Origin: Lentzea alba
Lineage (GTDB): Bacteria > Actinomycetota > Actinomycetes > Mycobacteriales > Pseudonocardiaceae
DNA length: 64,000 nucleotides
Reading direction: 5' to 3'
Assembly (NCBI RefSeq): GCF_011067745.1
Contig: NZ_JAAMPJ010000005.1
Location: 124,001-188,000 of the forward strand
The notes under the pieces: model-generated
Told to the model about the DNA's origin: nothing
Seen by the model: only the letters and a program-made list of their open reading frames with translations
Database searches by the model: none
In this document: positions 1,140 to 19,200 of the stretch, one piece after another
How the letters are laid out: the number at the start of each line of letters is the position of its first letter
Numbering within the stretch: position 1 is the first letter of the stretch
Made by a program: the position numbers and the translations under genes

Positions 1140-1666
1140 GGCGGGTACGGTAGCCGAACTCGGCCGCGCGCGAACGGCCGGGCCAGCAAGATCGCGGTCA
1201 ATCGCACGATCGAGCCGCTAGCAGAGCACCGGCCGCCGTGCACACGGCAAGGCCGGAAACCACCGGTTCGATGAGACCCAATACCTGGATGGCCTAGAGC
1301 GCCTGCACGGCCAAGCTGTGATTGCAACGGCAACTACCAGTGACCACAGGCCGGCCACGGGTTCGGGCGCGAACCACCACGGCATGCGCTCGCGACGGCG
1401 AACAACGGCGGCACGACGATGCGATCGCCGTTTCTACTATGACGCACGTCACGTTCCACCCGTTTGAACGCTACGGAACGTGTCCATACCGGCCAGTAAG
1501 GCCAATGAGTGCTCTCGTGCGGCGCAGCGGTTACACCCGGTCAGTCCTCACCCGGTCGGATGCGAACGGGTGCCGGTTTGGGGTCTTGTTCCCGGAACAC
1601 CCACCTCTTAGCTTTTCACCTATACGGGTCTTGCGCACCCGCCCCGAGCGTCTTGGAGGACACAAA
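1140..1666. other. 527-bp intergenic region upstream of the repeat-protein gene
   Basis: No convincing gene is present. The left end holds the -10-like TACCGT of the divergent small membrane gene. The right part holds two 9-bp direct copies of CACCCGGTC (1534-1542 and 1549-1557, period 15) and an inverted CGGGTG near 1567, then a candidate promoter and an untranslated leader. I recognise no known riboswitch. The leftward open frame around 1136-1333 has a random-looking composition and no ribosome-binding site. Confidence 0.5.
1586..1614 (+). promoter_or_regulatory. Candidate promoter of the DSVRIT-repeat gene
   Basis: TTGTTC (1586-1591), a 17-bp spacer and TAGCTT (1609-1614) match a sigma-70-type promoter moderately well. 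They would give a leader of about 45 nt ending in the GGAGG at 1655-1659. No start site has been seen; this is pattern-based only. Confidence 0.4.
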
Positions 1667-2155
1667 ATGTTCACGATGACCCGCCCCCAGGCCGTGACCT
1701 TCACTCTTCCGAGCTACAAGGACGATTCAGTGCGTATCACGGCCAGTGACTCCGTTCGCATCACGGCGAGCGACTCCGTTCGGATCACCGCGGCCGATTC
1801 GGTGCGCATCACCGCCGGAGACTCGGTGCGCATCACCATGTCGGACTCGGTCCGCATCACGGCGAGCGACTCGGTCAGGATCACCATGTCCGATTCCGTC
1901 CGAATCACGGCGCGTGAGGACTCCGTTCGGATCACCGCCGAGCAGGATTCCGTCAGGATCACCGCGCGTGAGGACTCGGTCCGCATCACGGCACACGACG
2001 ACTCGGTCCGCATCACGGCACACGACGACTCGGTCCGCATCACCGCTCAGGACGACTCGGTCCGCATCACGATGGACGACTCCGTGCGGATCACCGCGCA
2101 CGACGACAGCGTCCGCATCACGGCACGTCAGAACGACTTCTCCCTCGCGGCCTGA
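1667..2155 (+). CDS. DSVRIT tandem-repeat protein, unknown function
   Basis: The 162-residue product starts at the ATG preceded by GGAGG seven bases upstream. After a 19-residue leader (MFTMTRPQAV...YKD) it consists of sixteen copies of Asp-Ser-Val-Arg-Ile-Thr-Ala/Met. Units 1-7 repeat every 8 residues; most later units repeat every 9 with charged linkers (RE, EQ, HD, QD). It ends RQNDFSLAA. There is no signal peptide, cysteine or membrane span. Alternating polar and aliphatic residues suggest stacked short beta-strands (a solenoid) or a multi-core precursor peptide; neither is demonstrated. Arg is written with five codons and Ser, Val and Asp codons also vary while the residues stay fixed, so selection appears to act on the peptide. 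I recognise no family. The next gene is a convergent HNH nuclease. Confidence 0.85.
   Translation: MFTMTRPQAVTFTLPSYKDDSVRITASDSVRITASDSVRITAADSVRITAGDSVRITMSDSVRITASDSVRITMSDSVRITAREDSVRITAEQDSVRITAREDSVRITAHDDSVRITAHDDSVRITAQDDSVRITMDDSVRITAHDDSVRITARQNDFSLAA
1724..2128 (+). repeat. Coding tandem array, 16 units of 24 or 27 bp
   Basis: Sixteen imperfect units encode DSVRIT plus linkers. The period is 24 bp in the first seven units and mainly 27 bp afterwards, with one 24-bp unit (DSVRITMD). The ATC for Ile is constant while the other codons vary. The array keeps other frames open on both strands, which are shadows. Confidence 0.95.
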
Positions 2156-16298: not shown

Positions 16299-19200
16299 TC
16301 ACGCGCCCGGCAGAGTCCACCCCGCGGGACCGTGCGGCCCGACCGGGCGGATGGGCCCGGTGGTCTCGCTGTCCGGCGCCGCGCCCACGGGGACGATCGG
16401 GCCGGTCTTCTCCTGCTCGGTCTCCGCTAAGGGTGGAGCGGACTCCGGGCCGGGTTGAGCTCCCGGCTCCACGGCGGCGGGCGAGGTGTACGGCTGTGCC
16501 GGGAGGAAGTACTCCGAACCCGGTCCTTCGCCTGCCGACGGCGGCTGCGCGCCGAACGAGCTCAGCGGGCTGTCGCCGGCCGGTTCAGCCGGGAACTGCT
16601 GGCTGCCGAAGGACGGTGTTGAGCGGTAGAGCGAGTCGGCGACGGGTGAGCCCGCGGCCGAGTCCTGGTGGGCACCGAAGGACGAGCCGGGCCGAAAGAG
16701 GGGGTCCGCGCCGGACTCGCCCGGCAACGCCTGCGTGCCGAAGGAGGAGCCAGGCCGGAACCCCGAGTCGTCGCCGGGTTCCGCTGGCACCGACGGCGAG
16801 CCGGCCGACTGATCAGACCCGAACCTGAAGCCGACACCGGACTCCGCCTGCGAGCCGAACGAAGAGCCGGCCCCAAATCCGGATCCCTCACCCGGCTCCG
16901 GCTGCGAGCCGAAAGGCGAGCCGGGCCGAAATCCCGAGTCCTCGCCGGACTCCACCGGCATAGACGGCGAACCGAACGACGAACCAACCCCAAGCCCGGA
17001 ACCCTCACCGGACTCCGACTGCGAACCGAAGGACGAGCCCGGCCCAAACCCCGATTCCGTGCCCGACTCCGACACGGAAGGCGAGCCAACCCCAAACCCC
17101 GAACCCTCACCGGATTCCGGTTGCGAGCCGAACGAAGAGTCCCGCCCGAACCCCGAGCCCCCGCCGGACTCCACCGACGGCGAACTAGGGCGGAGCCCGG
17201 CGTTCCCACCCGACTCCTCCCCCGACACCGGCTGCGTACCGAAGGACGAGCCCGGTCCAAATCCCGAGTTCTCGCCCGGCTCCGCCGACGGCGAACCGAA
17301 GCGGAACCCGGCGTTGCCACCCGACTCCTCCGCCGACATCGGCTGCGTGCCGAAGGACGAGCCGGGGCCGAACCCCGAGTCCTCGCCCGAGTCCGGCACC
17401 GACGGCGAACCGAAGGACGAACCAGGCCGGAAGCCGGAGTCCTCACTCGACCGCGCCGACACCGGCTGCGTGCCGAACGACGGGCCAAGGCCGAAGCCGG
17501 GGCTTTCGCTGGACGCGGCTTCCGCGGACGACTGCGTGGCGGACGGCTGCGCGCCGAAGGACTCCCCTGGGCGAAAGAGCGGGTCCGTGGTGGAGGACCG
17601 CTCCCCTTCCGCGCCGGATCGCTCGGAAGCGACGGCGGAGTCCGCGGCGGCCCCTGGTTCGGCGGCCGACCAGTCCGGGACGCTCAGGTCGGTGGCTTCG
17701 ACCTGCTCCTCGTCGGAGCGGCGGCCCGTCTCGTAGGCGACGAGCGCTTCCGCCAGCAGGTCGGCGAGGCTCAGGTCGCTGGGCTTGCGGCGGCTGCTCG
17801 GGCGGCCCGTTCGCGTGCCGGACTCGCCGGTGCTCTCGGTGCCGGTCGCGGCGGCGATGGTGAGTCCGGTTTCGGTCGGCGCGTCCGCCTGCGATGCCTG
17901 GTCGACCGGGTCTGACGGGGTCGCGGGCTCGGTTGCGAAGTAGTCGTACTGCGGGGTCGAGTCGGACTCGGTGCCCACGCCGGATCCGGCATCGATGGCG
18001 CGGTCGGGCTGGTCGCCGAAGCCGCCGAAACCCGACTGGGTGCCGAAGCCGGGTGGTGTGCCGAAGCTGGGTGGTGTGCCGAAGCTGGTCTGGGTGCCGA
18101 AGGTCGGCTGCGTCCCGAAGTTCTGGGTGCCGAAGCTCGACTGACCGCCGAAGCCGGGCTGGGCGGTGCTGTCGGGCGGTGCCGGCTGGTCGGCGGCGCG
18201 GGGCAGGCGGACCGGGACGGTGGGGACGTCCCCGGTGTCGTCCTCCACGTCCGCCGAGCTCAGGAACGTGCTCGACAGCAGGTCCGGTTCCGGGGCCTGC
18301 GGGACCTCGTCCGGGGTGGGTACCGACGGGATCGGATCCGGGAGGGGCGGCAGCGGTGTGTGGTCGGGGTCCGGTTTCGGTTCCTGGTCCGGGTGCTCCG
18401 CCGGCTCCGGGGAGGGGACGGAGGCGGACGGCCGCTGGGACTTCGGGGTGCTGAAGTCGAGCGAGCTGAAGTCGAGGTCGGGGAGCTTGCGCTCGTCGTC
18501 CGGGTCGGAGGGCGTGGCCGGGAAGCCTCCCGCCGGGGTGTGCAGCGGGTAGGACGGTTCGTCGAGGTGCGGGCCGAAGTCCGGGGCCGCCGGGGGACGG
18601 CCGAACGCCGCGGCCAGGCCGGAACGGCCGGGGCGGTCCGGCATGTCCGGCGAGGGTGAGTCCGCGAAGTAGTTCGGGTGGTCGGCGGGTGCGGCGTGCG
18701 ACCCGGAGGAGTCCGGGGTCGCGGCGTCGTCTTCACGGAGGCGGGACGGCGGTTCCACGCGCCACGACGGGGTCGAGGGCTCGGCCTCGCTGTCACGGGC
18801 ACGGCGGCGGCCACCTGCTCGCAGGCCCTGGGCCTTGAGCATGTCCAGCACGCTCTCCGGCTGGGAGTTCGAGGCTTCCGCACGAGCAGCGGCTTCCGCG
18901 CGGGCAGCCTCCTCGCGTTCCGCGGCCTGGCGGGCGACTTCCTGATGTGCCGCTTCCTGACGCGCGACGTCCCGGCGAACCGCTTCCAGCCGGGCGGCCT
19001 CGCGCCGAGCCTCCTCCAGGCGAGCGGCCTCCTGACGCGCCGCTTCCTGACGGGCTGCTTCCTGGCGTACCGCTTCCTGACGGGCTGCTTCCTGGCGTGC
19101 GGCTTCCGCACGAGCGGCTTCCTGGCGCGCGGCCTCTTGGCGCGCGGCTTCCTCCGCCTCGCGGGCCTCGCGTTCCGCCTGGGCGCGTTGTTCCTCGCGC

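Follow-up and report, generated by a model that had tools for sequence, protein, structure and literature searches.

What does a small bacterial protein built from sixteen copies of one short motif do, and what keeps the copies alike? The question is raised by a gene of Lentzea alba that lies in a stretch of 64,000 nucleotides (hereafter the window), and it can be taken in three parts: what is held constant, in which genomes, and for what use.

Repeat units and their selection

The gene (1667–2155, plus strand, stop codon included) starts with ATG behind a GGAGG ribosome-binding site (1655–1659, plus strand, by direct reading) and encodes 162 amino acids. Its translation falls into three parts, all on the plus strand: an N-terminal leader of 19 residues (1667–1723); 16 DSVRIT units with spacers of two or three residues, delimited by unit analysis (1724–2122); and a C-terminal tail, ARQNDFSLAA, whose end is ssrA-like by comparison with the organism's own tmRNA tag (2123–2152). 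This is the layout of 16 units behind a 19-residue leader that the original prediction described, and all 16 units are perfect DSVRIT. Its term "heptapeptide" was loose: the repeat exists, but its fixed part is D-S-V-R-I-T, joined to a variable spacer, and in the wider SVRIT group the fixed part is SVRIT, without the D. The period change from 8 to 9 residues that it reported is real, with one late exception: start-to-start spacings run 8 (seven times), 9 (six times), and then 8 and 9.

The fixed residues are written in varying codons, as had also been claimed. The cores use two codons for Asp, four for Ser, three for Val, five for Arg, and two for Thr; Ile alone is uniform (ATC, 16/16). The 16 units contain 12 distinct 18-nt cores. 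Compared in pairs, they show 344 codon differences, every one of them synonymous (0 non-synonymous). Two adjacent 27-bp units are identical, so some units are recent duplications. The proposal that the pattern reflects selection on the peptide is borne out by the synonymous-only core differences.

Between relatives, the first seven units of 20 Lentzea-group genes show 1486 synonymous and 0 non-synonymous codon-pair differences in the cores, and 500 synonymous and 961 non-synonymous ones in the spacers, a sharp contrast; these are pair counts, not independent events, and cover 20 of the group's 22 genes (two of other spacing were left out, and one that was kept is titled Nocardia sp.). All 22 genes together hold 421 perfect cores and 2 one-off cores. 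Among the 144 distinct array proteins introduced below, 2619 perfect cores stand against 72 with one substitution, and the least uniform array has 6 against 3. These counts support selection on the peptide; the Lentzea-group spacers, to judge from their codons, drift close to freely.

In its own genome (10.2 Mb) the array protein has one match, and its closest named relatives are in Lentzea. TRF reports more tandem repeats in the window, at 16850–17500 (periods 54–117) and 18926–19153 (periods 15–45).

Locus, promoter block and family

A sigma-70-like promoter can be read directly on the plus strand: a −35-like hexamer, TTGTTC (1586–1591), and, 17 nt away, a −10-like hexamer, TAGCTT (1609–1614). 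It runs into a conserved block, TTTTCACCTATACGGGTCTTGC (1613–1634, plus strand), which was recovered by genome and family searches and contains the predicted transcript start. In the column consensus of 49 rows, CTTGT at the −35-like hexamer and the −10-like hexamer itself are conserved, and the block reads TTTTCACCTGTACGGNNCTTGC (in Lentzea, CACCTATACGG). In a set of 77 ungapped upstream regions the block alone stands out; the hexamers are not visible there, at least partly because their spacing shifts and was left unaligned. In the loci read, the start codon lies 50 or 65–72 nt downstream of the block. The 22-nt block is single-copy in the window's genome in a search at up to 3 mismatches, and as there is no second copy it was rejected as a regulon element; a 20-base form has one further place in that genome, at 2 mismatches.

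The 20-base form, at no more than one mismatch, occurs in 271 of 390 genomes of the family, from 36 of 46 genera; a reversed-pattern control finds 10 genomes. Among 184 loci with block-like sequence that had already been fetched (a set smaller than the 271 block-bearing genomes), 179 carry an array of at least three units. The five others are four loci from outside the family, with no array, and L166, with two GVRIS units in the portion read. In a sample of 397 genomes from the order, the matches listed for the block beyond the family all have 1–2 mismatches, and the reversed-pattern controls also match.

The array keeps its chromosomal place. Of the 69 loci that exceed 5 kb, 67 have it between ctaJ/DUF5130, which is divergent, and an HNH endonuclease gene, which is convergent (some genomes are present twice in these sets); the exceptions are L079, which stops at a contig end, and L082, a secreted gene. 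In the window, ctaJ (an aa3 oxidase subunit; NF050118, E 3.2e-30) occupies 894–1139 and the HNH gene (PF14279, E 8.2e-12) 2168–2836, both on the minus strand and both backed by synteny. Other conserved neighbours, labelled by eye, are prolyl oligopeptidase-like, MscS-like, globin, and glucosidase genes; the first persists at L216, where the array is absent.

Between ctaJ and the promoter are fragments (1163–1534, minus strand, from three short tblastn matches) that resemble an MFS transporter ORF, of which many relatives have an unbroken copy in this position. The match at 1427–1534 (E 9e-15) is to the first 36 residues of the called ORF, perhaps upstream of its true start; the others lie at 1174–1302 (E 2.8e-7) and 1163–1219 (E 0.1). 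A divergent MFS transporter, aligned over at least 390 aa, adjoins the array in 26 of the 67 loci. Most of the Lentzea loci that were read, and several other genera, keep the transporter ORF whole here.

Protein searches recover the same build. GTDB species genomes yielded 32 loci, all SVRIT arrays, from Lentzea, Umezawaea, Saccharothrix, Actinosynnema, and Solihabitans, with one record titled Nocardia sp. The 390 family genomes gave matches in at least 112, from 20 of 46 genera, a lower bound with nine candidates scored per genome. Weaker matches were read in 29 cases and show the same architecture with other cores, for example GVRIS, GTRVT, or GTRIT; one of them, L082, is the different, secreted gene already mentioned. 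Homologues sharing the motif, whose absence the original prediction had named as evidence against itself, are thus widespread in Pseudonocardiaceae, and their unit numbers, which it had proposed to compare, vary. Because same-build relatives are so widespread, and with core variation synonymous only, a chance or low-complexity artefact is ruled out.

Several loci of one genome can occur in the fetched set, so distinct proteins were counted: 144, of which 143 are complete, with 3–60 units each (14 to 29 within Lentzea). Their cores are GTRVT (52), SVRIT (43), GVRIS (36), GTRIT (3), GVRVT (3), GVRIH (3), GIRVN (2), GVRVN (1), and GVRIE (1). Further cores, GVRIN and GIRVT, come from loci that lack the block at one mismatch; arrays kept at such loci are those of g27 (GTRVT), g38 (GVRIN), G361 (GVRIS), and G004 (GIRVT, with its HNH neighbour assigned by eye). 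The general core is [GS]-[VTI]-R-[IV]-[STNHE], in which only Arg followed by Ile or Val is common to all. Spacing is lineage-specific as well: 6, 8/9, 7/12, or 11 residues, and the spacings of the three largest lineages cluster at 6, 8, and 9. The smallest members, in G374 and G375, have 31 residues, with four GVRIN units in one genome and three GVRIN plus one GVRID in the other. The pI runs from 4.5 to 12 in SVRIT arrays and from about 11.4 to 12 in the others, a range that contradicts a conserved net charge.

The array is missing from some genomes. In g20, g41, and g45 (one genome each) the ctaJ and HNH neighbours are present and the array is absent. For six genomes of g30, the closest HNH match reaches about 50–56% identity and has no usual neighbours within 1.5 kb, and the array locus was not identified. 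A profile search of 40 genomes, mostly ones missed by the block search, gave three matches: G004; G309, a secreted array; and G304, judged to be chance. This result is no proof of absence, because the profile missed a three-unit remnant in G359. Class-wide, the profile matched 4 of 355 genomes, with at most 21 candidates scored per listed genome; the window's own genome and one family member are real, and the matches in G882 and G915 were read and judged to be chance reading-frame repeats. A 51-aa ORF with three ST[VA]RGGRFGF repeats takes the array's position at L235 (G392, in a different family of the order), about 160–315 bp from the HNH gene; it is not counted as a relative, because among 16 further genomes of its genus it has just two weak matches (E 8.7e-4 and E 0.0034).

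No catalogue gives the family a name. On the window protein, DUF2345 (PF10106) scores 69.9 bits against a cut-off of 30.7, and ChapFlgA and Glyco_hydro_65C also reach their cut-offs; 28 Pfam families have matches on these repeats at E≤1. Among sister arrays, a GTRVT protein (115 aa) matches nothing in Pfam at E≤0.01, and a GVRIS protein (a 151-aa excerpt) has a sub-threshold match to DUF4774 only. The Pfam and NCBIfam matches (DUF2345, ChapFlgA, Glyco_hydro_65C, T6SS VgrG, and others) are mutually inconsistent and were read as an effect of repetition or composition. Searches of NCBIfam, PADLOC, Rfam, PDB, and phage sequences returned no name for the family: PADLOC-DB gave no anti-phage defence family at E≤0.01 for two arrays, and the phage search found no match to the array. 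Two hypothetical Bacillus proteins matched in a plasmid search (29–34% identity) and were put down as probable low-complexity matches. In the open-licence literature searched no described family was found, and the core motif strings occurred in no relevant paper. The original prediction knew of no described family either, and none emerged here, the three Pfam models above their cut-offs being judged repeat effects. The array family is accordingly regarded as new; its mechanism may prove to be of a known type.

Core exchange, leader and tail

How often does an array change its core? On a tree of the neighbouring HNH proteins, ten core types plus "none" require 16 changes; the minimum is 10 and the mean for shuffled labels is 83. 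Whole arrays have therefore rarely switched core. Such a pattern would be expected if units are homogenised again and again, if a partner constrains them, or if both apply. Some types need several changes on this tree (SVRIT 3, GTRVT 6), which is quick, has many weak branches, and retains 149 of 199 rows after rows below 60% HNH identity were removed and duplicates collapsed; either the same core has arisen repeatedly, or the tree may be wrong at those points.

Outside the array, two elements recur. A leader motif, [VILFA]T[RLQHS][SPM], at about residues 12–16, is present in 64 of the family's 115 distinct leaders, whereas shuffling them gives 6.3; the motif was picked after inspection, and the leaders, taken as distinct when their first 12 residues differ, share ancestry. 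At the other end, AA closes 77 of the 143 complete proteins, 55 of which have LAA, and the remaining 66 have neither; for comparison, of 460 ORFs called mechanically in the long loci, none ends in LAA and 21 end in AA. SVRIT arrays account for 37 of the 55 LAA ends; outside SVRIT, 18 of 100 proteins have one. Tails such as DFSLAA are found with SVRIT cores and with GTRVT cores.

The window protein ends in SLAA, and the tmRNA tag of its own genome is ATSNDTRTAYALAA. LAA is listed as ClpXP C-motif-1 in PMC9775585, so the array tail matches both that motif and the host tag. Unlike ssrA-tagged or C-motif-1 substrates of ClpXP, the array carries a gene-encoded tail, and some lineages lack it. Where it is present, the tail would make the protein a candidate for degradation by ClpXP.

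Possible uses of the array

Any model has to explain why the core is invariant and the spacers drift, why the number of units is free, why each lineage has a core and a spacing of its own, how elements of the leader and the tail survive a switch of core, and why the promoter block is conserved. The preferred reading, to which a probability of about 0.38 is given, is that the protein is a leader plus an array of short linear motifs, often with a degron-like tail, in which the motif is the functional unit. Each core would be read, unit by unit, by a partner encoded elsewhere. The array would thereby offer multivalent binding, for titration, scaffolding, or condensate formation; unit number would be free to vary widely; a change of core would have to sweep the whole array; and the ssrA-like tail, where present, would let ClpXP set the protein's lifetime.

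This reading explains the facts with the fewest assumptions, and a precursor explains most of them; a solenoid accounts for the beta-branched core and the preferred spacings, but not for spacer drift or the tiny members. Several observations count against the motif array. No partner of the motif was found. The preferred spacings would fit a regular fold equally well. The tail is not universal, and net charge is not conserved. SVRIT and GTRVT need their three and six changes on the tree, and two genomes, G215 and G216 (g23), hold two cores, which weakens a strict matching of one core to one partner.

The regular fold is the first of the rivals. Each unit might contribute a strand, xVRIx, with the spacers as short turns, so that the array folds as a small beta-solenoid or forms a fibre or functional amyloid; on present evidence this is rather unlikely. 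In both proteins modelled with AlphaFold2, every unit receives a strand. For the window protein (an alignment of 20 rows) mean pLDDT is 54 and no residue reaches 70, so the structure prediction that had been recommended gave strands but at low confidence. For a relative from Saccharothrix deserti (8 rows, near-perfect 8-residue repeats) mean pLDDT is 77, and 70 of 140 residues reach at least 90. That model is nonetheless weak evidence, because AlphaFold2 is reported to give confident yet unrealistic beta-solenoids for perfect random repeats (PMC11795689). Foldseek found nothing in the PDB at E≤0.001, and a profile search of PDB sequences nothing at E≤10; the best weak Foldseek matches, with TM-scores of about 0.15–0.4, are mostly ice-binding beta-solenoids, with the FapC amyloid and bactofilins among them.

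Spacing speaks on both sides of the same question. The left-handed beta-helix has a hexapeptide pattern, [STAV]-x-[LIV], and the arrays show that alternation; GTRVT arrays often have 6-residue spacing (711 of about 990 spacings no longer than 12), and the clustering of the three largest lineages at 6, 8, and 9 suits a solenoid. Elsewhere, unlike in that helix, the arrays are spaced otherwise. Against a solenoid, the period differs by lineage, the spacers drift, and some members have just 31 residues, with three or four GVRIN units.

The second rival is a multi-core precursor, rated no more and no less probable than the fold: the leader would be recognised, the protein would be cleaved (ClpP, reached by way of the ssrA-like tail, is a candidate), and lineage-specific short peptides, modified or not, would be released in many copies. 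Invariant cores with drifting spacers suit it, and so do leader and tail elements that persist through core switches. Multi-core RiPP precursors of the cyanobactin and thiovarsolin type likewise have a leader and then identical cores; unlike theirs, the array locus has no recognised modifying enzyme. Fungal Kex2-processed repeat proteins (KEPs) have a core-and-spacer layout, as does the array. In PMC7329392 they are described as precursors cut to short peptides from their repeats. Repeats as a source of short peptides are thus a KEP feature; the window protein differs from KEPs in being bacterial, with no signal peptide seen and no constant dibasic site.

The same cores also occur in what look like exported proteins. 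These are small, with N-termini that resemble signal peptides by eye and about 3–6 GTRVT or SVRIT units, and they lie away from the syntenic locus. They were found in 3 genomes (57 genomes in one search): GTRVT in two genes of G309 (L283 and L297), and SVRIT in G216 (L285 and L082) and G215 (L295). In addition, G216 and G215 each carry a GTRVT array (L171 and L286, respectively), which is how they come to have two cores. The secreted forms speak for a precursor, as does the MFS transporter that is divergently adjacent in 26 of 67 loci. In the window, however, the transporter is in fragments while the array stays strongly selected; export through it is thus not required, and a dedicated exporter next to the array was rejected. 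No modifying enzyme was seen alongside the array, as originally reported: neither such an enzyme nor a protease that goes with a precursor was recognised in the conserved neighbourhood of the locus, although an enzyme may be encoded elsewhere, and inspection by eye of the surroundings of one secreted array showed no modifying enzyme either. The universal core residues, Arg and then Ile or Val, define no RiPP class that we can name, and the spacers are too variable for a constant protease site. The fifth core residue can be S, T, N, H, or E, according to lineage, which counts against a mechanism in which Ser or Thr would have to be modified in all lineages. Taken whole, the original prediction, which had offered a beta-solenoid or adhesive fibre or a multi-core precursor, is partly supported.

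A further idea, quite improbable, joins the precursor to the tail: the tail would feed the array to ClpXP, the released cores would act as lineage-specific signals that report ClpXP load, and the secreted arrays would be its exported version. Least credible of all is that the locus acts as DNA or RNA (a regulatory leader or dual-function RNA) with the repeat ORF as passenger: the 22-nt block is conserved above the remainder of the upstream region, but core variation is purely synonymous, no conserved RNA fold is predicted in the 5′ leader (the column-shuffled control is flat at zero, so this adds little), and no Rfam family exceeds its gathering score at 8 loci.

One chromosomal position kept across many genera, closely policed cores, and array-wide switches by lineage imply a function, and none was found described. 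Pseudonocardiaceae are known for their antibiotic producers. About ten core variants of one motif amount to a natural experiment, and the family illustrates that short repeat genes, easily taken for low complexity, can face extreme selection.

Two minor observations concern composition and growth of the arrays. Lysine is scarce in the 144 proteins, at 0–2.1% by core type, which could reflect avoidance of pupylation or merely high G+C. In g4, loci L106–L121 carry GTRVT arrays of up to 60 units, some of them with near-identical blocks that resemble recent amplification.
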